Positions 45,073 through 53,988 of a DNA stretch of 64,000 bases are shown in pieces. The notes under the pieces were generated by a model that searched no databases, was not told the DNA's origin, and was given only the letters and a program-made list of their open reading frames with translations. The stretch's first letter is position 1. Each line of letters starts with the position of its first letter. Source of the stretch: Kineococcus aurantiacus (GTDB lineage Bacteria > Actinomycetota > Actinomycetes > Actinomycetales > Kineococcaceae). The translations under genes were made by a program, and so were the position numbers. Where the stretch lies: contig NZ_JACCBB010000001.1 of assembly GCF_013409345.1 (NCBI RefSeq), positions 4,464,001 through 4,528,000 of the forward strand, read 5' to 3'.

Positions 45073-45594
45073 TTGCCAGAGCTCACCGACTACGACGACG
45101 ACCCGCGGGCGCTGTTCGCCACGTTCGCGCTCTTCCCCTCCGGCGTCGCCGCCCTGTCGGCCGTCGTGGAGGGGGAGCCGGTGGTCCTCGTCGCCTCCTC
45201 CTTCCAGGTCGGCATCTCCGCCGCGCCCCCGCTGGTCCTGGTCGCCGTGCAGCACACCTCCAGCAGCTGGCCGAAGCTGGCGGCCGCCGCCGCGGCCGGC
45301 GGCCGGATCGGCGTCTCGGTGCTGGGCGAGGCCCACGACGTCGCCGCCCGGCAGATGGCCTCCCGGGCCGGTGACCGCTTCGCGGGCATCGGCACCACGA
45401 CCACGCCGTCGGGTGCCCTGTTCGTCGACGGTGCGCCCGCCTGGCTGGAGTGCAGCCTGCACTCGCAGTTCCCCGCGGGGGACCACGACGTGGTCCTGCT
45501 GCAGGTGCACGCCCTGGGCACCGAGCCGCACCTGGAGCCGCTGGTCTGGCACGGTTCGGGGTTCCGCGCGCTGCGACCGCGCGTGGACGCCTGA
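45073..45594 (+). CDS. Flavin reductase-domain protein, 173 aa
   Basis: The sequence has the flavin reductase fold of HpaC/RutF-type proteins (FALFPSGVAALSA, FQVGISAAPPLVLVAVQ, GRIGVSVLGE). Such proteins supply reduced flavin to two-component monooxygenases. The TTG start follows GAGGACGG. It is separated from the RutA-like gene by the importer and regulator but shares their operator, which makes it the likely partner. Confidence 0.8.
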   Translation: MPELTDYDDDPRALFATFALFPSGVAALSAVVEGEPVVLVASSFQVGISAAPPLVLVAVQHTSSSWPKLAAAAAAGGRIGVSVLGEAHDVAARQMASRAGDRFAGIGTTTTPSGALFVDGAPAWLECSLHSQFPAGDHDVVLLQVHALGTEPHLEPLVWHGSGFRALRPRVDA

Positions 45595-45689: not shown

Positions 45690-46532
45690 ATGCCCCGACC
45701 CGTCCGCGTGGCCGCCGTGGCCGCCCACTTCGGTCGTGACCTCGACCGCGGGCTGGCCAAGGTCCTGGGCATCGTGGCGGAGGCGCGGGCCTCGGGGACC
45801 GACCTGCTGGTCCTGCCGCACGCGGCCCTCGGGGGGTACCTGGCCGACCTGGCCGACCCCGCGGCGCACGGGCTGCCCCCGGCCCTGGACGCCGCCGACG
45901 CCGTGTTCGAGCAGGTCCGCCGCGCGTGCGGCCCGGTGACGGTGTGCCTGGGTTTCACCGAGTCCGTCGACGTCCACGGCACGACCGTGCACCACCCGGC
46001 CGCGGTGTGCCTGCACGGTGACGGGGTCCTGGGGCGCCACCGCAAGGTCCACCTCCCGCCGGGGGAGGCGGCCGTCTACGCCGCCGGTGACGCGCTGGCC
46101 GCGTTCGACACCCCCGTCGGCCGGCTGGGCATGCTCATCGACTTCGACAAGACGTTCCCCGAGGCCGCGCGCACGCTCGCCGTGCAGGGCGCGCACACGA
46201 TCGCGTGCCTGTCCGCCTGGCCGGCCAGCGTCACCGACCGCTCCTCCCGGCTCCCGCAGGACCGGCAGTCCCGGTTGTTCGACCTGTACGACTGCGCGCG
46301 CGCCGCCGAGAACCAGGTGGTGTGGGTGTCCTCGAACCAGACGGGGATGCACGGTTCGCTGCGCTTCCTCGGCCAGGCCAAGGTCGTCAACCCCGGCGGT
46401 GACGTGCTGGCGCGCACGGGGTCCAAGGGGGGTCTGGCCGCGGTGGAGGTCGACGTGGAGACCGAGGTCGCCCGCGCCCGGCGCACGCTGCACCACCTGG
46501 CCGAGCGCCATCGTGAGGTCTACGAAACGTAG
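45690..46532 (+). CDS. Nitrilase-fold protein with a lost catalytic triad (pseudo-nitrilase), 280 aa
   Basis: The protein aligns throughout with the active nitrilase at 50,501: GRHRKVHLPPGE, AFDTPVGRLGM, ENQVVWVSSNQTGMHGSLRF. The catalytic Glu of LPEACLGGY is His44 here (LPHAALGGY), and the catalytic Cys of ICYDKAFPE is Asp151 (IDFDKTFPE). Only Lys119 remains. It should not perform nitrilase thiol chemistry. The frame is intact with high GC3, so it is under selection. It may regulate or form mixed assemblies with the active enzyme, since nitrilases form spirals, or bind the nitrile. The following gene begins 43 bases on. Confidence 0.8.
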   Translation: MPRPVRVAAVAAHFGRDLDRGLAKVLGIVAEARASGTDLLVLPHAALGGYLADLADPAAHGLPPALDAADAVFEQVRRACGPVTVCLGFTESVDVHGTTVHHPAAVCLHGDGVLGRHRKVHLPPGEAAVYAAGDALAAFDTPVGRLGMLIDFDKTFPEAARTLAVQGAHTIACLSAWPASVTDRSSRLPQDRQSRLFDLYDCARAAENQVVWVSSNQTGMHGSLRFLGQAKVVNPGGDVLARTGSKGGLAAVEVDVETEVARARRTLHHLAERHREVYET

Positions 46533-46545
46533 AAGTCTTCCCGGT

Positions 46546-46561
46546 GTAACCACCACGAAAC
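46546..46561 (+). promoter_or_regulatory. GlnR-type nitrogen-control box before the Nit1C genes
   Basis: GTAAC-CACCAC-GAAAC matches the actinobacterial GlnR box gTnAC-N6-GaAAC exactly. A further GAAAC lies 22 bases earlier (46524). The box ends 14 bases before the ATG at 46576, next to a TTAGGG -10-like element, so it may repress, or activate from an upstream start. Confidence 0.6.
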
Positions 46562-46575
46562 AGTTAGGGCATGAA

Positions 46576-47406
46576 ATGTTTTTCGTGCCCCTCACCTTCG
46601 ACGCACACCGCCACCTCGGCCGGCTGCCGGCGTACCCCTTCTACGGGGGCCCGCCGGTCAACCCCGACACGAGCGCCCGCGACCAGATCGCGGACCTGGT
46701 CGACGACCTCGACCGGGAGGGCACCGAACGGGCCCTGCTGCTGCCCAACTACGGCGTCCCGGTCGCCGCCGCCAGCTTCGCCCTCAACGAGCTCGTGCTC
46801 GAGACGGCGTCGAAGGACGACCGGTTCGTCTGCGGCCTGTGGACCTCCCCGCGGGCCGAGGACGCCGAGCTCACCGACGCCGCCCTGGCCCTGGCCGGGG
46901 AACGCAGCGTCGTCGCCCTCAAGACGAGCTTCCTGCTCGGGGGCGGCGTCGACGACCCGACGTCCCAGCCGCAGATCGAGAGGATCTTCGCCACGGCCCG
47001 GGAGCGGGACCTCGTCGTCCACGTCCACACCTCACCCGGGGCGGCCTCGGACATCGACGAGATCGGCAAGCTCGTCGACCGCTACGGCGACGACGTGCGC
47101 ATCCACCTCGTCCACCTCGGCGGGGGGATGAGCGCCCACATCAAGCTCATCGGCGGCCGGTTCTTCGACTGGATCGAGGCCGGCAAGAAGGTCTACACCG
47201 ACACCAGCTGGGCGATCGGTTTCGCGCCCCGCTGGCTGGCGAGCGAGATCGAGCGGCGCGGGACCGGCGCCGACCGCGTCCTGTTCGCCTCCGACGAACC
47301 GTGGGGCGACCACGCGGGCGAGCTCGCCCGCCTGCGGGCCGCCTCGCAGAACCCCGAACTCGTCCGCATGTTCCTGCAGGACAACTACACCGCCCTCTAC
47401 GGCTGA
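46576..47406 (+). CDS. Amidohydrolase_2-family metal-dependent hydrolase, 276 aa
   Basis: The first metal motif is DAHRHLG at residues 9-15, where amidohydrolase_2 members usually have DxHxH. HVHTSPG (about residue 153) and HLVHLGGG supply later His ligands, and LFASDEPWGD near residue 237 holds the catalytic Asp. The family hydrolyses or decarboxylates ring and amide substrates. The ATG at 46576 is out of frame with an ATG at 46571. TTAGGG six bases before the start suggests a leaderless transcript. It is the first gene after the GlnR-like box and starts the Nit1C run. Confidence 0.75.
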   Translation: MFFVPLTFDAHRHLGRLPAYPFYGGPPVNPDTSARDQIADLVDDLDREGTERALLLPNYGVPVAAASFALNELVLETASKDDRFVCGLWTSPRAEDAELTDAALALAGERSVVALKTSFLLGGGVDDPTSQPQIERIFATARERDLVVHVHTSPGAASDIDEIGKLVDRYGDDVRIHLVHLGGGMSAHIKLIGGRFFDWIEAGKKVYTDTSWAIGFAPRWLASEIERRGTGADRVLFASDEPWGDHAGELARLRAASQNPELVRMFLQDNYTALYG

Positions 47407-47428
47407 CCCGACGCGACAGGAGCCCACG

Positions 47429-47983
47429 ATGACCACGACCACCGCCACCCCCGCCACCACGACCGAGATCGACGAGCTCATCAAGGCGAACATCGCCAAG
47501 TCCCTCGCCGAGGTCCCGCACCCGGTCAAGGAGAAGGGGGAGGACCTGTACGGCAAGACGAAGGTCTTCCCCGACTACCAGGCCGAGGACGGGGAGAGCT
47601 ACTTCACCCTCGTGCACGGCATCGCCCACGAGTCGTCGGTGAGCTTCGTCGCGATCCTGCAGGCCACCCGCGCGCTGCGGAAGGGGTACGACTCCGCGAT
47701 CTACTTCTACGGCCCCGGGTCCATGAACTGCATCGCGACCCGCGGGTTCCCCACCGTGGGCGACTCCGGGTTCCCCGGTGAGCAGAACGTCAACGGCGCG
47801 CTGGAGACGTTCATCGCCGAGGGCGGCACCGTCTACTGCTGCCGCTTCGGCCTCGCCCTGCACGGCAACCGCGAGGAGGACCTCATCGCCGGGGTCATCC
47901 CGTGCCACCCGCTCGACGTGCAGGACGCCCTCATCCACTACGCCCGCAAGGGCGCCATCATCAACTCGACCTACAACCTCTGA
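47429..47983 (+). CDS. nitB: MSMEG_0572/Sll0783-family nitrogen-starvation protein, 184 aa
   Basis: The sequence KVFPDYQAEDGESYFTLVHG, SVSFVAILQATRALRKGYDS and the Gly/Cys-rich GPGSMNCIATRGFPTVGDSG are distinctive of the MSMEG_0572 (Sll0783) family. This is the first conserved member of the cyanobacterial/actinobacterial Nit1C cluster. Its biochemical role is unknown. The Synechocystis homologue is induced by nitrogen starvation. The ATG follows CAGGAGCCC, and its stop overlaps the next start (TGATG). The symbol follows the Pseudomonas Nit1C nomenclature. Confidence 0.85.
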   Translation: MTTTTATPATTTEIDELIKANIAKSLAEVPHPVKEKGEDLYGKTKVFPDYQAEDGESYFTLVHGIAHESSVSFVAILQATRALRKGYDSAIYFYGPGSMNCIATRGFPTVGDSGFPGEQNVNGALETFIAEGGTVYCCRFGLALHGNREEDLIAGVIPCHPLDVQDALIHYARKGAIINSTYNL

Positions 47984-49062
47984 TGACCTGCGAGGACACC
48001 GTCGGGACCCGGGTGGACGTCGCGATCCGCGGCGTCCGCCTGGCGGCCCCCGTCCGCCGCACGGGTGGTGCGGGGCCCAGCGACGACGGCCACGTCGTCC
48101 TCGACGGTTTCGCCTCGGCGATCCCGCTGCGCCCCGACAGCCCGTACCTCGTGCGCGACGGCCGACTCCTGCTCGAGAGGACCGGGGCGGTCACCGACCT
48201 CGGGGTCGCGGTCGAACCCGTCGCGCGGCCGCGGTTCTACGACCTGCGGACCGCCGACGGCGTCCCCTACGAGCAGATCGCCAAGCTGCACGGCCGGGAC
48301 GTCCTGGCCACCACCGTGGTCCAGACCTGCTCGCGCTACGCCCCGGAGAACCGCTGCCGGTTCTGCGCCGTCGAGGAGTCCCTCGCCGCGGGGGCGACCA
48401 TCGCGGTCAAGACCCCCGCGATGCTCGCCGAGGTCGCCCGCGCCGCCGTCGACCTCGACGGCGTCCGGCACGTCGTCATGACGACGGGCACCTCGACGGC
48501 CCCCGACCGCGGCGCCCGGCACCTGGCCCGCTGCACCCGGGCCATCCAGGAGGCCGTGCCCGGCCTGCCCGTGCAGGTGCAGTGCGAACCGCCCGCGGAC
48601 CCGGCCACCCTCACCGAGCTGAAGGAGGCCGGAGCCGCCTCCATCGGCATCCACGTCGAGTCCCTCGACGACGCGGTCCGGCGCCGCTGGATGCCGGGCA
48701 AGTCCACGGTGCCGCTGGCGGAGTACTGGGCCGCGTGGACCGAGGCCGTGCGGGTCTTCGGCCGCAACCAGGTCTCGACGTACCTGCTGGTCGGGCTGGG
48801 GGAGGACCCCGACGAGCTCGTCGAGGGCGCCGCACGCCTCGTCGACCTCGGCGTCTACCCGTTCGTCGTGCCGTTCCGGCCGCTGGCCGGGACCCTCGCG
48901 GTGGACGTCGACGGCGCCCACGGTCCCGACCCCGCTGTCCTGGAGGACGTCACCCGCCGGGTCGCGCAGGTCCTGCGGGCCGGCGGGATGCGCGGGGCGG
49001 ACCAGATGGCCGGCTGCGCCGCCTGCGGGGCCTGCTCGGTCCTGCAGAACCTCAGCGCCTGA
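47983..49062 (+). CDS. nitD: Radical SAM protein, MSMEG_0568 family, 359 aa
   Basis: The cluster-binding Cys are C116, C125 and C128 (TCSRYAPENRCRFC), so the spacing is CX8CX2C instead of the usual CX3CX2C. The SAM-binding GGE-like strand and the TIM-barrel elements HVVMTTGTST, VQCEPPADPATL and YLLVGLGEDPDEL follow. The C-terminus adds a Cys-rich CAACGAC, possibly a second metal site. The family is always found in Nit1C clusters. The reaction is unknown. The gene overlaps nitB by one base. Confidence 0.85.
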   Translation: MTCEDTVGTRVDVAIRGVRLAAPVRRTGGAGPSDDGHVVLDGFASAIPLRPDSPYLVRDGRLLLERTGAVTDLGVAVEPVARPRFYDLRTADGVPYEQIAKLHGRDVLATTVVQTCSRYAPENRCRFCAVEESLAAGATIAVKTPAMLAEVARAAVDLDGVRHVVMTTGTSTAPDRGARHLARCTRAIQEAVPGLPVQVQCEPPADPATLTELKEAGAASIGIHVESLDDAVRRRWMPGKSTVPLAEYWAAWTEAVRVFGRNQVSTYLLVGLGEDPDELVEGAARLVDLGVYPFVVPFRPLAGTLAVDVDGAHGPDPAVLEDVTRRVAQVLRAGGMRGADQMAGCAACGACSVLQNLSA

Positions 49063-49109
49063 ACCCCGCACGCGAACCCCGCACCCGAACCCCGGAGGGG
49101 ACGACCACG

Positions 49110-50504
49110 ATGCCGCTCGACCTGCCGGTCCTGGCCGGCCTGCCGCGCCAGCGGACCGCCTTCCACGTCGAGGTCGCCGACGCCGCCGCCGAACGCGCCC
49201 ACCGCCGGCTGCGCCGGGACGTCTTCGTGGCCGAGCAGCAGCTCTTCGCCGCCGACGACCACGACGACGCCGACGACGACCCGCGCCGCCGGGTCCTGGT
49301 GGCCCGCACCGCCGACGGGACGGTCGTCGGGGGTGTCCGGCTGGCCCCCTGCACGGCCGAGGACGTCGGCTGGTGGCGCGGCAGCCGGCTCGTGGTCACC
49401 CCGCGGGCCCGCACGCTGGGCGGGGTCGGCAGCGCCCTGGTCCGGGCCGCCTGCGCGCACGCCGAGGAACTGGGCGCCCTGCGCTTCGAGGCCACCGTGC
49501 AGACCCGGGGCGCGGTGCTGTTCCGCCGCCTCGGCTGGGAGCACGTGCGCGACGTCGTCGTCCAGGGCGTCCCGCACGCCCTCGTCCGCTACCCGATGGA
49601 CCGTCCCCGCCGGCTGGCCGAGGCGACCAAGGCCGCGCTGGCGGGTGTCCTCGACGGTCTCGTCCAGACCCCCGCGGGTTTCCTCGGTGACGACGGGACC
49701 CCCGTGCCCGGCACGGACGTGGTCGCCGCCTGCGACGCGGTCCTGCCCTCCCTCGTCGACCGCGACCCCGAGTGGGCGGGCTGGTGCGCGGTCCTCGTGA
49801 ACGTCAACGACCTCGCCGCGATGGGGGCGGCCCCCGTCGGGCTGCTGGACGCGCTGGCCGCCCCCACCGCCGACCACGCCCGCCGGGTCGTGGCCGGGCT
49901 GCGCGCCGCGAGCCGGGCCTGGGGCGTCCCCGTGCTCGGCGGCCACACGCAGTTCGGGGTGCCCGCCGCGCTGTCCGTGACGGCCCTGGGCCGCACGGCC
50001 GACCCGGTCCCCGCCGGCGGGGGACGGCCCGGGCACGCCCTGTCCCTGACCGTCGACCTCGGCGGGTCCTGGCGGCCGGGCTACACGGGCTCGCAGTGGG
50101 ACTCCAGCTCCCGACGGTCCCCCGGGGACCTGCGGCAGATGGGTTCCTCCGTCGCCCGCACCCGCCCCGCCGCCGCGAAGGACGTCAGCATGGCGGGGCT
50201 GCTCGGCACCGTCGGGATGCTGGCCGAGGCCAGCGGCGTCGGCGCCGAGATCGACGTCACCTCCGTCCCGCGCCCGCCCGGCACCACCGTCGGCGACTGG
50301 TTCACCTGCTTCCCCGGTTTCGGGGTGGTGACCGCCGACCTCCCCGGCCGCGCCCCGGCACCCGCCGGACCGGCCACCACCGCGACCGTCGGCCGCCTGC
50401 ACGCCGCCGCCTCCCCGGACGACCGGGGGGTGGCGCTGCGCTGGCCCGACGGTGAGGTGACCCGGGTGATCCCGGGTCCCGTCACAGGAATGGGAACCGC
50501 ATGA
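49110..50504 (+). CDS. GNAT acetyltransferase / AIR-synthase-like fusion, 464 aa
   Basis: Residues 1-165 form a GNAT domain (RLRRDVFVAEQQLF, LVVTPRARTLGGVGSALVRA, VLFRRLGWEHV). Residues 170-464 form an AIR-synthase (PurM)-like domain (VNVNDLAAMGAAPVGLLDAL, VLGGHTQFGVPAALSVTALG). In other Nit1C clusters these are two genes, nitE (MSMEG_0567-type) and nitF (Sll0787-type). Here no stop separates them. The PurM-like part would bind ATP and a phosphorylated or carboxylated intermediate. The ATG follows GGAGGGGACG, and the stop overlaps the nitrilase start by ATGA. Confidence 0.85.
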   Translation: MPLDLPVLAGLPRQRTAFHVEVADAAAERAHRRLRRDVFVAEQQLFAADDHDDADDDPRRRVLVARTADGTVVGGVRLAPCTAEDVGWWRGSRLVVTPRARTLGGVGSALVRAACAHAEELGALRFEATVQTRGAVLFRRLGWEHVRDVVVQGVPHALVRYPMDRPRRLAEATKAALAGVLDGLVQTPAGFLGDDGTPVPGTDVVAACDAVLPSLVDRDPEWAGWCAVLVNVNDLAAMGAAPVGLLDALAAPTADHARRVVAGLRAASRAWGVPVLGGHTQFGVPAALSVTALGRTADPVPAGGGRPGHALSLTVDLGGSWRPGYTGSQWDSSSRRSPGDLRQMGSSVARTRPAAAKDVSMAGLLGTVGMLAEASGVGAEIDVTSVPRPPGTTVGDWFTCFPGFGVVTADLPGRAPAPAGPATTATVGRLHAAASPDDRGVALRWPDGEVTRVIPGPVTGMGTA

Positions 50505-51379
50505 CCAGACTGGCCGCCGCCGCCGAGAACTTCGGCCGCGACCTCGACACCGCCTACGCCACCATCGAACGGCTCCTCGCCGAGTCCCGGGGAGCGCAGC
50601 TGCTGGCCCTGCCCGAGGCCTGCCTCGGCGGGTACCTGTCCTCCCTGGGCTCCAGCGAGGACCGCGGGACCACCGGTTCCCGCCGCGCCCGTCCCGGGCC
50701 GCCGCCGCTGCGCCTGGACGGCCCCGAACTGCGCCGGGTCGCCGAACTGGCCGGGGACACCGTCGTCGTCCTCGGCCTCTGCGAGGACGGCGGCGACGAC
50801 CTGGGCGGTGACCTCTACAACACCGCCGTCGTGCTGACCGGGGACGGGATCCTCGGCGTCCACCGCAAGGTCCACCAGCCGCTGGGCGAGAACCTCTCCT
50901 ACGCGGCGGGTTCGGTGTTCGAGGCGTTCGACACCCCGGTCGGCCGCATCGGCCTGCAGATCTGCTACGACAAGGCGTTCCCCGAGGCGGCCCGCGCGGC
51001 CGCCCTCGACGGCGCCGAGATCGTCGTGAGCATCTCCGCCTGGCCCGGGTCCCGCACCGCCTCGTCCGCCGACCTCGCGCAGGACCGCTGGAAGAAGCGG
51101 TTCGACCTGTACGACCAGGCCCGCGCGCTGGAGAACCAGGTCGTCTGGGTCGCGGCGAACCAGGCGGGGACGTTCGGTTCGCTGCGCTTCGTCGGCAGCG
51201 CGAAGGTCGTCGGCCCCGGCGGGGAGGTCCTCGCCGGCACCGGCGTCGAGGCGGGCCTGGCCGTCGCCGACGTCGACGTGGCGGCCGAGCTGGCCGCGGC
51301 CCGCCGGTCGATGTTCAACCTCCGGGACCGCCGTCCCGACACCTACGACGCCCTGGTGCGGGAGCCCGCGCGTGCCTGA
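50501..51379 (+). CDS. nitC: Nit1C-type nitrilase, 292 aa
   Basis: Glu39 (LALPEACLGGY), Lys123 (VHRKVHQPL) and Cys155 (QICYDKAFPE) form the complete nitrilase triad. The length and the RFVGSAKVVGPGGEVLAGTG C-terminal part match the Nit6803 (Sll0784) family, which converts nitriles to acids and ammonia. In Pseudomonas fluorescens NCIMB 11764 the Nit1C cluster is required for growth on cyanide as nitrogen source. The gene overlaps both neighbours. Confidence 0.88.
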   Translation: MTRLAAAAENFGRDLDTAYATIERLLAESRGAQLLALPEACLGGYLSSLGSSEDRGTTGSRRARPGPPPLRLDGPELRRVAELAGDTVVVLGLCEDGGDDLGGDLYNTAVVLTGDGILGVHRKVHQPLGENLSYAAGSVFEAFDTPVGRIGLQICYDKAFPEAARAAALDGAEIVVSISAWPGSRTASSADLAQDRWKKRFDLYDQARALENQVVWVAANQAGTFGSLRFVGSAKVVGPGGEVLAGTGVEAGLAVADVDVAAELAAARRSMFNLRDRRPDTYDALVREPARA

Positions 51380-51665
51380 GATGACGTTCACCGTCCGCTG
51401 GCCCGACGACACCGTCCAGCGCTGCTACTCCCCCTCCCTGGTGGTGCACGACCACCTCACCGCGGGCCGCGACTACCCGGTCGAGGAGTTCACCACCCGC
51501 TGCCGCACGGCCCTGACCGAGGCCAGCGACCGGGTCCGCGCCCGGTACGGGATGGCCTGCACGTCGGCCCTGGCCCAGTTGTCCGACATCGAGCGGCGCG
51601 CGGCCGGGCAGACCGGCCGCGTCCAGGTGCTCGCCCTCGAACCCCCTCTGCCGCAGGAGACCTGA
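51372..51665 (+). CDS. nitG: MSMEG_0570-family nitrogen-starvation protein, 97 aa
   Basis: This small protein starts with TFTVRWPDDTVQRCYSPSLV, with VHDHLTAGRDYPVEEFTTRC after it, which is the conserved pattern of the MSMEG_0570 family. Two conserved Cys suggest redox or metal roles, but none is proven. The GTG start lies eight bases inside the nitrilase gene, and its last base is the first base of the oxidoreductase ATG. Confidence 0.8.
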   Translation: MPEMTFTVRWPDDTVQRCYSPSLVVHDHLTAGRDYPVEEFTTRCRTALTEASDRVRARYGMACTSALAQLSDIERRAAGQTGRVQVLALEPPLPQET

Positions 51666-52909
51666 TGACCGAGCACCACGACGTGCTGATCGTCGGCGCC
51701 GGCCAGGCCGGCCTCGCCCTCAGCCACCACCTGACCCGCCGCGGCGTCGACCACGTCCTGCTCGAACGCGCCACGGTCGCCCACGAGTGGCGCGACGGGC
51801 GCTGGGACGCCTTCACCCTCGTCACCCCCAACTTCCAGTGCCGGCTGCCCGGGTTCTCCTACGCCGAGGAGTTCGGCGGGACCGACCCCGACGGTTTCAT
51901 GCCGCGCGAGGAGGTCCACCGCTTCCTGCGCGCCTACGCCGCCAGCTTCGACCCGCCCGTCCGCGAGGGCGTCGAGGTGCACCGCCTGTGGCGCGACGCC
52001 GACGTCTTCCGCCTGGAGACGACCGCGGGCGGTTTCAGCGCCGACCAGGTGGTCATCGCCACCGGCGGGTACCACCAGCCGGTCGTCCCCGCCTTCGCGG
52101 CCCGGATCCCCGGCACGGTGACGCAGCTGCACAGCTCGTCGTACCGCAGCCCCTCGGCCCTGCCCGACGGGGACGTCCTCGTCGTCGGTTCCGGCCAGTC
52201 CGGCGCGCAGATCGCCGAGGACCTGCACCTGGCCGGTCGCCGCGTGCACCTGGCCGTCGGCAGCGCCCCCCGCTGCGCCCGCCGGTACCGCGGCCGCGAC
52301 TGCATCGCCTGGCTGGAGGAGATGGGCGTCTACGACGTCACCGCCGCCGAGGTCCCCGGCGGGGCCGCAGCGCAGGAGAAGACGAACCACTACATGACCG
52401 GCCGGGACGGCGGGCGGGACATCGACCTGCGCCGGTTCGCCCTCGAGGGCATGGGGCTGTTCGGCCGGCTCGACGACGTCCGCGACGGTGTCGCGCACTT
52501 CAGCCCCACCCTGCGCGAGGCCCTCGACCACGCCGACTCCGTCGCCGAGAGCATCAAGGACTCCATCGACCGGTACGTCGCGGCGCAGGGGATCGACGTC
52601 CCCACCGAACCCCGGTACACCCCCGTCTGGACCCCGCCGCAGCAGGAGGCGACGACGCTGGACCTGGCCGCGGTCTCCGCGGTCGTGTGGAGCGTCGGCT
52701 ACCGCGCCGACCACCGCTGGGTCGACCTCGGGGTGTTCGACGGCCGCGGGCGCCCGCGCCAGACCCGCGGCGTCACCGGGACCGAGGGGTTGTTCTTCCT
52801 CGGCCTGCCCTGGATGCACACGTGGGGTTCGGGGCGGTTCGCCGGTCTGGCCCGGGACGCGGAGTTCCTGGCCGACCGGATCTGCCTGCGCTCCCCGGTC
52901 CGCGCGTGA
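51665..52909 (+). CDS. nitH: Flavoprotein monooxygenase/oxidoreductase, MSMEG_0569 family, 414 aa
   Basis: Two dinucleotide folds are visible, VLIVGAGQAGLALSHHL at the N-terminus for FAD and VLVVGSGQSGAQIAEDL near residue 173 for NAD(P)H. WRDGRWDAFTLVTPNFQCRL and the C-terminal LFFLGLPWMHTWGSGRFAG complete the pattern of flavin-containing monooxygenases of the MSMEG_0569 type. It probably oxidises a nitrogen compound handled by the cluster. Confidence 0.88.
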   Translation: MTEHHDVLIVGAGQAGLALSHHLTRRGVDHVLLERATVAHEWRDGRWDAFTLVTPNFQCRLPGFSYAEEFGGTDPDGFMPREEVHRFLRAYAASFDPPVREGVEVHRLWRDADVFRLETTAGGFSADQVVIATGGYHQPVVPAFAARIPGTVTQLHSSSYRSPSALPDGDVLVVGSGQSGAQIAEDLHLAGRRVHLAVGSAPRCARRYRGRDCIAWLEEMGVYDVTAAEVPGGAAAQEKTNHYMTGRDGGRDIDLRRFALEGMGLFGRLDDVRDGVAHFSPTLREALDHADSVAESIKDSIDRYVAAQGIDVPTEPRYTPVWTPPQQEATTLDLAAVSAVVWSVGYRADHRWVDLGVFDGRGRPRQTRGVTGTEGLFFLGLPWMHTWGSGRFAGLARDAEFLADRICLRSPVRA

Positions 52910-53988
52910 GGGTCGCCCTCACGACGTACTCGACGAAACCCCGCGGCGGGGTCGTCCACACGCTCGCCCTCGCCGAGGCCCTCGTCGACCTCGGGGTGGA
53001 CGTGTCGGTGTGGACGCTCGGCCGCGGCGGGGACCAGGCGTTCTTCCGGCCCGTCGACCCCCGCGTCGACGTGCGGGTCGTGGAGTTCGCGGCCCGCGAG
53101 GACGAGGACGTGGGCGCGCGCATCCTGCGCTCGATCGACGTGCTGCGCGCGGGCTTCGACCCGGCCCGCCGCGCCGGCGCCTACGACGTGGTCCACGCCC
53201 AGGACTGCATCAGCGCCAACGCCGTCGGCCGCTGCGTGCGCACCGTCCACCACCTCGACACCTTCACCACCCCCGAGCTGGCCGCCTGCCACGAGAAGGC
53301 GATCGTCGAACCGTTCGCCCACGTCTGCGTCTCGGCCTCGGTGGCCCGCGAACTCACCGACGGGTGGGGGCTGCACCCCACGGTCATCCCCAACGGGGTC
53401 GACGCCCAGCGGTTCGCCCGCGCCGACCCGGCCCCCTGGCGCGACCGCTTCGGCCGGTACGTCCTGGCCGTCGGCGGCATCGAACCCCGCAAGGGCAGCC
53501 TCGACCTGCTGCGGGCCGTCGCGCGGCTGCGGGCCGAGCTGCCCGACGTGGAACTGGTGTTCGCCGGCGGGGAGACCCTGTTCGACTACCGCGGCTACCG
53601 GCAGGAGTTCGACCGGCTCGCCGTCGACCTCGGCGTGCACCCGCGCGTGCTGGGACCCGTCGCCGACGACGACCTGCCCGGCCTGGTCGCCGGGGCGGCC
53701 GCGATGGGGTTCGTCTCCACCAAGGAGGGGTTCGGCCTGGCGGCCATGGAGGCGCTGGCGGCGGGCGTGCCGGTGGTGACGCGCGAACTGCCCGTGTTGC
53801 GCGAGGTGTTCGACGGCGCCGCCCTGTTCGCCGACGACCCCGCCTCGATCGCCGCCGCCCTGCGCACCGCCGTCGAGGTCCCCGACCCCGGGCGCACCCG
53901 CCGCGGCCGCGACCTGGCCGCCCGGCACACCTGGACCGCCGCGGCCCGGGCGCACCTGGCCCTCTACGAGGAGCTGCGCCGGAGGTGA
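52906..53988 (+). CDS. Glycosyltransferase family 4 protein, MSMEG_0565 type, 360 aa
   Basis: The N-terminal GGVVHTLALAEALVDLGVDV and the C-terminal STKEGFGLAAMEALAAGVPV (EX7E motif) are GT4 hallmarks. VLAVGGIEPRKGS is the nucleotide-sugar-binding strand. MSMEG_0565-type glycosyltransferases occur at the end of actinobacterial Nit1C clusters, so glycosylation of a cluster product is likely. The GTG start overlaps the nitH stop. It is the last gene of the run, followed by a hairpin. Confidence 0.85.
   Translation: MRVALTTYSTKPRGGVVHTLALAEALVDLGVDVSVWTLGRGGDQAFFRPVDPRVDVRVVEFAAREDEDVGARILRSIDVLRAGFDPARRAGAYDVVHAQDCISANAVGRCVRTVHHLDTFTTPELAACHEKAIVEPFAHVCVSASVARELTDGWGLHPTVIPNGVDAQRFARADPAPWRDRFGRYVLAVGGIEPRKGSLDLLRAVARLRAELPDVELVFAGGETLFDYRGYRQEFDRLAVDLGVHPRVLGPVADDDLPGLVAGAAAMGFVSTKEGFGLAAMEALAAGVPVVTRELPVLREVFDGAALFADDPASIAAALRTAVEVPDPGRTRRGRDLAARHTWTAAARAHLALYEELRRR

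Follow-up and report, generated by a model that had tools for sequence, protein, structure and literature searches.

The stretch of DNA analyzed here (hereafter the window) comprises 64,000 nucleotides of the actinobacterium Kineococcus aurantiacus (contig NZ_JACCBB010000001.1, positions 4,464,001 to 4,528,000; genome of 5.03 Mb in two contigs) and carries two paralogous carbon-nitrogen (CN) hydrolase genes, which we call PSEU and ACT (Table 1) and whose starts lie 4.8 kb apart. Both match the Pfam family CN_hydrolase (PF00795), PSEU at 1.1e-26 and ACT at 1.1e-39, and the predicted model of PSEU has the nitrilase fold, placing it in the CN-hydrolase superfamily. The 292-residue translation of ACT (50501-51376) has Glu39 in LALPEACLGGY, Lys123 in GVHRKVH and Cys155 in GLQICYDKAFPEAAR, whereas the 280-residue translation of PSEU (45690-46529) has His44 in LVLPHAALGGY, Lys119 in GRHRKVH and Asp151 in GMLIDFDKTFPEAAR. 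With the second glutamate included, the site reads Glu39/Lys123/Glu130/Cys155 in ACT (E-K-E-C) and His44/Lys119/Glu126/Asp151 in PSEU. The two proteins are 49-51% identical and their catalytic motifs align without gaps, in agreement with the original prediction, made from the DNA letters, that PSEU has lost both the Glu and the Cys. Of the Glu-Lys-Cys triad of catalytic CN hydrolases, PSEU retains the Lys alone; ACT is predicted to be active from its intact residues.

Relatives were gathered in two ways. A scan of named genomes with two patterns, one including Asp151 (D[YF]DKTFPE) and one neutral, gave at least 516 stretches encoding relatives of some kind, of which the best 80 were studied, while genus and class sets were found by whole-protein similarity and are less biased; three loci with proteins identical to others were left out of the counts. 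Asp151 and Lys119 are present in all 108 PSEU copies compared (107 distinct copies and that of locus L186), as is Glu126 in 107 of them, the exception being L186, which has Asp. The less biased sets agree, with Asp151 in 6/6 genus and 33/33 class copies, and the distinct ACT paralogues compared are E-K-E-C in 112 of 112 cases. Because the change from Cys to Asp and the loss of Glu recur in 107 other distinct relatives, neither chance nor sequencing error is the source of the substitutions.

Position 44 behaves differently from Asp151. Across the 108 copies it is D in 87, H in 12, G in 4, Q in 3 and Y in 2, and Glu in none; His44 is found in the window copy and in 11 of the 107 other distinct relatives. 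On the PSEU tree this position has changed at least 10 times (the His label alone at least five times), whereas Asp151 is constant. Since position 44 drifts and is never Glu, His44 is best described, from these alignments, as a recurrent local variant, and the Cys-to-Asp change as the signature of PSEU. The original prediction asked whether an H-K-D paralogue recurs in other genomes: an Asp form does recur beside an E-K-C paralogue, but His44 is rare, the residue usually being Asp, and does not belong to the signature. Three further sites switch class from ACT to PSEU: W197 to Q193, R200 to L196 and D276 to E272. At the first of these the Trp may be an innovation of ACT, because E-K-E-C relatives of other classes (except the ACT of genome G744) carry Gln.

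In a 64-row tree PSEU forms one clade (support 97/96) and ACT another (98/90), with single E-K-E-C enzymes found within the cluster in another class as sisters of ACT (95/88). That PSEU forms a single clade suggests that the Cys and Glu were probably lost once and early; the position of the root is uncertain, with long outgroup branches and root-branch support of 90/91. PSEU is under purifying selection similar to that on ACT: over 35 non-overlapping close pairs the median ratio of nonsynonymous to synonymous substitution rates (dN/dS) is 0.092 for PSEU and 0.119 for ACT, and PSEU has the lower dN in 19 of the 35, a difference that is not significant (p 0.33). These values come from the Nei-Gojobori method, which is crude at high GC, and from pairs that share no locus yet are phylogenetically dependent. 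PSEU thus combines lost catalytic residues with purifying selection, as a pseudoenzyme does, and the inference of selected upkeep without frame decay in the original prediction is borne out by this ratio and by the conserved copies in relatives.

We also examined the substrate pocket, using the residues named for the N-carbamoylputrescine amidohydrolase of M. truncatula (PMC4812014; this and the other papers are cited here from excerpts of their text). Twelve pocket positions, of our own choosing, were mapped from that enzyme by motif spacing. Among 101 loci with both genes, conservation reaches 97% or more at 10 of the 12 in PSEU and likewise at 10 of the 12 in ACT; the exceptions are positions 44 and 152 (97 Y, 3 F, 1 H) in PSEU and positions 155 (97 A, 4 G) and 180 (60 S, 41 A) in ACT. 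The same threshold is reached by 99 of the 266 positions in PSEU and by 91 in ACT, and PSEU copies also have a higher mean identity in pairwise comparison (0.693) than ACT copies (0.628). A hypergeometric test of the conservation of the PSEU pocket gives p 0.001, treating positions as independent and the 12 analyst-chosen sites as given. Loss of the thiol has thus not led to decay of the PSEU pocket, which is constrained about as much as that of ACT.

The remaining genes of the cluster are collected in Table 1.

Table 1. Genes and putative regulatory site at the PSEU-ACT locus, in window coordinates.
Feature	Positions	Strand	Basis
FR: flavin reductase (PF01613), upstream of PSEU	45073..45594	+	Pfam
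PSEU: carbon-nitrogen hydrolase paralogue, Cys-to-Asp	45690..46532	+	translation, Pfam, alignment, AlphaFold2 (AF2) model
GlnR-like box GTAACCACCACGAAAC (putative), between PSEU and AMH	46546..46561	+	exact match to the GlnR-like consensus
AMH: amidohydrolase (PF04909)	46576..47406	+	Pfam
NITB: MSMEG_0572/Sll0783 family (TIGR04044)	47429..47983	+	NCBIfam
RSAM: MSMEG_0568 family radical SAM protein (TIGR04043)	47983..49062	+	NCBIfam
GNAT/AIR: MSMEG_0567 family acetyltransferase and AIR-synthase-like fusion (TIGR04045, TIGR04050)	49110..50504, start approximate	+	NCBIfam
ACT: paralogue with intact Glu39/Lys123/Glu130/Cys155, predicted active	50501..51379	+	translation, Pfam, alignment, AF2 model
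SML: MSMEG_0570 family small protein (TIGR04042)	51372..51665	+	NCBIfam
FAD: MSMEG_0569 family flavoprotein (TIGR04046)	51665..52909	+	NCBIfam
GT: MSMEG_0565 family glycosyltransferase (TIGR04047)	52906..53988, start approximate	+	NCBIfam

The MSMEG_0572, radical SAM, GNAT, AIR, MSMEG_0570 and MSMEG_0569 families that characterize Nit1C/gpr clusters occur together in the window, where the stop of GNAT/AIR overlaps the start of ACT. By NCBIfam names the gene set equals that of the gpr (GlnR-dependent peroxide resistance) cluster of Mycobacterium smegmatis, MSMEG_0565-0572, from which the window differs in that PSEU lies outside the presumed operon. Nit1C clusters of Pseudomonas, Synechocystis and Burkholderia have the radical SAM, GNAT, AIR-like, MSMEG_0572/Sll0783 and flavoprotein families in common with the window (PMC1199592, PMC11049912), but where they encode NitC the window has the short amidase-like ACT together with PSEU. 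In the strict sense of Nit1C a subfamily 1 NitC gene lies within the cluster, and here there is none: ACT scores 34 bits against the cut-off of 502.6 for the NitC/Nit6803 nitrilase (TIGR04048), PSEU has no match to that model at E 0.001, and a search of the whole genome gave no member above the 502.6-bit cut-off. The cluster is thus, as judged from its families, of the gpr type and related to Nit1C, and the description of ACT as the active nitrilase of a Nit1C cluster is not supported.

Both proteins were modeled as single chains with AF2 (predicted local distance difference test, pLDDT, of 88 and predicted template modeling score, pTM, of 0.89 for PSEU; pLDDT 86.6 for ACT). The solved structures closest to PSEU by sequence are PH0642-type amidases, and the folds closest to its model in Foldseek are N-carbamoyl hydrolases, PH0642-type proteins and mouse nitrilase-2. 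The N-carbamoylputrescine amidohydrolase/PH0642 branch, which gives the best Foldseek and phmmer matches, resembles PSEU in fold and length, and Lys119, Glu126 and the pocket residues align with it; PSEU differs from it in its low identity (~20-26%) and in the loss of Glu and Cys. Neither protein reaches the 410-bit cut-off for N-carbamoylputrescine amidase (TIGR03381), PSEU scoring 65 and ACT 91. Mixed nitrilase spirals of the two proteins, one of the roles first proposed, are unlikely because neither has the long C-terminal extension of the spiral-forming true nitrilases. Both end soon after the core domain, PSEU with 22 residues beyond the region aligned to the cyanide dihydratase 8c5i_A, which has 58, and ACT with 31 residues beyond its Pfam match.

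By their record titles, the best 80 of the named-genome stretches are all from Actinomycetota. Five of these 80 loci lack ACT, and an E-K-E-C ACT is encoded elsewhere in all five genomes; at L081, ACT is present in broken pieces only, at a contig end. Within the genus, six of 11 genomes have both PSEU and ACT, one has ACT only and four have neither; the only other genome of the family also has neither. In all six PSEU is beside the cluster, although three genomes have it at one end and three at the other. In a class sample of 394 genomes (up to six candidates scored per genome) 49 were matched: 32 have both genes, 16 ACT only and one PSEU only. The residues were read in all 33 copies of PSEU; for ACT they were read in 25 of the genomes with both genes and in 10 of those with ACT only, and the remaining seven and six ACT were assigned by their identity to PSEU (50-55% and 46-53%). 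NITB occurs in 60 of the 394 genomes, namely in the 32 with both genes, the 16 with ACT only and 12 with neither. Nine of those 12 (L141-L149) were inspected, and their MSMEG_0572-family gene has few or no other matched cluster genes and no ACT or PSEU nearby.

A phylum sample of 396 genomes gave matches in nine at E 1e-55, and outside the class PSEU was found only in G744, together with ACT, the matches in the other four genomes being E-K-E-C. Among 72,556 plasmid records (E 1e-40) only four, all from Rhodococcus, had matches; three of these bear the annotation 'carbon-nitrogen hydrolase family protein' and the fourth bears none. Other actinobacterial classes have a third type of E-K-E-C homologue (L199, L202, L203, L204), which is about as close to PSEU as to ACT and has no matched cluster gene within the surrounding 12-18 kb.

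Among the cluster genes searched for, GT lies downstream of PSEU in 97 of 107 loci, and the upstream gene is FAD in 59, AIR in 25 and ACT in 9; AMH is present in 56. The nine ACT-PSEU tandems have 14-69 bases between match edges. In a mirror-tree analysis of 92 loci the distances of PSEU correlate best with those of FAD (partial correlation 0.39), a hint of a link between the two or of no more than their adjacency. We also searched for GlnR boxes, using what we take to be the GlnR consensus. In 44 of 121 loci such boxes stand no more than 2.5 kb upstream of NITB, whereas the overall density on one strand would give ~0.06 per locus; within the window, with one mismatch allowed, there are eight, against 8.2 by chance.

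When the mycobacterial relatives are considered in this context, a counterpart in M. smegmatis can be proposed. The order NITB-ACT-SML-FAD-RSAM-GNAT/AIR-PSEU-GT is found in 11 of the 13 named Mycobacterium and Mycolicibacterium loci from the best 80 relatives; L081, which is truncated, is consistent with it, and L102 is differently ordered. The MSMEG numbers, read downward from 0572 to 0565, suit this gene order, and therefore ACT would correspond to MSMEG_0571 and PSEU to MSMEG_0566, which should be the Asp form by gene order in the mycobacterial loci rather than from the M. smegmatis sequence. Both MSMEG_0566 ('aliphatic amidase') and MSMEG_0571 ('hydrolase, carbon-nitrogen family') are upregulated in nitrogen starvation or limitation (PMC4222082, PMC4617892), the two having values of 48.04 and 8.94 in the nitrogen-starvation table of PMC4222082, and MSMEG_0571 has been counted with the GlnR-regulated C-N hydrolases (PMC3662644). 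The eight-gene gpr cluster raises NADPH/NADP in nitrogen-starved M. smegmatis, and a possible contribution of MSMEG_0566 to nitrogen assimilation has been suggested (PMC6039565). The same authors report that they did not succeed in identifying particular genes able to complement deletion of the cluster (PMC6039565), in keeping with a function that involves several proteins; in Synechocystis, loss of the NITB-family gene sll0783 gives a more oxidizing cell (PMC3901256). The excerpts of the M. smegmatis papers, which treat MSMEG_0566 as an aliphatic amidase and MSMEG_0571 as a hydrolase, do not remark on a missing cysteine, and among the papers listed in searches of the open-access PMC literature none calls this paralogue catalytically dead. 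A UGA codon of MSMEG_0571 has been argued to be read as selenocysteine (PMC6039565); all that is seen in the window is an overlap of ACT with the start of SML.

We tentatively suggest, at a little short of an even chance, that PSEU acts in the ACT pathway without hydrolysis, as a ligand-binding partner or sensor, its pocket kept and its nucleophile gone. An amidase-like E-K-E-C enzyme would have given rise to it a single time, at an early stage of Actinomycetota, and the nitrogen-starvation cluster MSMEG_0565-0572/gpr would have retained it along with its E-K-E-C sister ACT. By our computation the nucleophilic Cys has been fixed as Asp and the general-base Glu lost, whereas PSEU retains the oxyanion Lys, its second Glu and the majority of the mapped pocket residues and is under strong selection. 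Cysteine-based hydrolysis employs a thiol and a base Glu, while the Lys and second Glu are described as serving the oxyanion hole and the orientation of the substrate (PMC4812014). Because thiol and base Glu are both gone, PSEU would make no thioester acyl-enzyme and so perform no ACT-like hydrolysis, but it would still bind the small amide, carbamoyl or nitrile compound that ACT binds, or a related one. In dimers of the nitrilase family the C-terminal arms are exchanged and the pocket is walled by neighboring subunits (PMC4812014), and perhaps, as the least certain step, PSEU and ACT form a mixed dimer in which the C-terminal arm of PSEU walls the ACT pocket. We infer a partnership with ACT in this sense, and more broadly a sensor or partner role; being kept intact in many actinobacteria, PSEU probably has a different job than ACT.

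Several observations weigh against this proposal. The usual neighbor of PSEU is GT rather than ACT, and the mirror-tree partial correlation between PSEU and ACT over the 92 loci is 0.06, the lowest of PSEU's six. ACT is without PSEU in 16 of the 48 ACT genomes of the class sample, and no change in ACT clearly marks the loss of PSEU, two sites doing so weakly. Because a putative GlnR-like box, 13 bases past the stop of PSEU, separates it from AMH, the transcript of PSEU in the Kineococcus lineage may be distinct from that of the main operon. Finally, one class genome (G039) has an intact orphan PSEU (D-K-E-D) and neither ACT nor NITB. The orphan, the mirror-tree result and the 16 ACT-only genomes together weaken the idea of PSEU as an obligate partner of ACT. 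The orphan gene itself (L150, 8342-9205) adjoins an aldose-epimerase-like gene, identified by eye, with no other matched cluster gene in 17 kb.

Alternatively, PSEU could be an enzyme with new chemistry, in which Asp151, Lys119, Glu126 and usually Asp44 make up an acid-lysine-acid site that acts on a cluster intermediate, with Asp as a nucleophile, as a general acid/base or as part of a metal site. We regard this as a minority possibility. The invariance of Asp151 is stricter than a merely dead site would suggest, Lys119 and Glu126 are kept, the orphan copy persists without ACT and the neighbors are enzymes (radical SAM protein, flavoprotein, glycosyltransferase); however, the many residues and changes at position 44 make a fixed metal site or base there unlikely. 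We know of no CN hydrolase with an Asp nucleophile, and none is among the papers listed in our searches of the open-access PMC literature. A narrower form is rather improbable: the fixed Asp at the nucleophile elbow, with the old Lys and the second Glu, would carry out Asp-based group transfer or lyase chemistry on a metabolite that the radical SAM protein and flavoprotein produce. If it were true, the nitrilase fold would have been turned to a different catalysis in many actinobacteria while annotated as an ordinary carbon-nitrogen hydrolase or amidase.

A purely structural or regulatory role, with PSEU as an inactive subunit that stabilizes or activates ACT (or GT or FAD) by contact and the Asp-Lys pair locking a dead pocket, is also unlikely. 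ACT accompanies PSEU in 32 of its 33 class-sample genomes, the two are sometimes in tandem, and pseudoenzymes of the prozyme kind, in which a dead paralogue activates its active twin, offer a precedent for a conserved dead paralogue beside an apparently active one. Yet the pocket positions of PSEU are no freer than the rest of the protein, and the ACT-only genomes and the low mirror-tree correlation count against this explanation as well. That PSEU is a sensor for gene control, of nitrile or cyanide, as the original prediction had offered, or of nitrogen status, is very improbable: the nearby GlnR-like box and the kept pocket would suit it, but Pfam finds no further domain in PSEU, and GlnR already accounts for induction in M. 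smegmatis (PMC6039565, PMC4222082). A decaying gene copy, which the missing catalytic residues might suggest, is extremely improbable, being contradicted by dN/dS near 0.1 in the 35 pairs, by the many conserved positions and by the lack of internal stops in the genus and class matches.

If one of the two 'hydrolases' of the Nit1C/gpr cluster cannot hydrolyze in the classical way, pathway models and annotations ('aliphatic amidase', 'carbon-nitrogen hydrolase') mislead for a widespread gene, and PSEU would offer a starting point in the search for the ligand of the cluster. The product of the flavin reductase gene that precedes PSEU, which among the 107 PSEU loci was matched only in the window and in L117, could feed the cluster flavoprotein.

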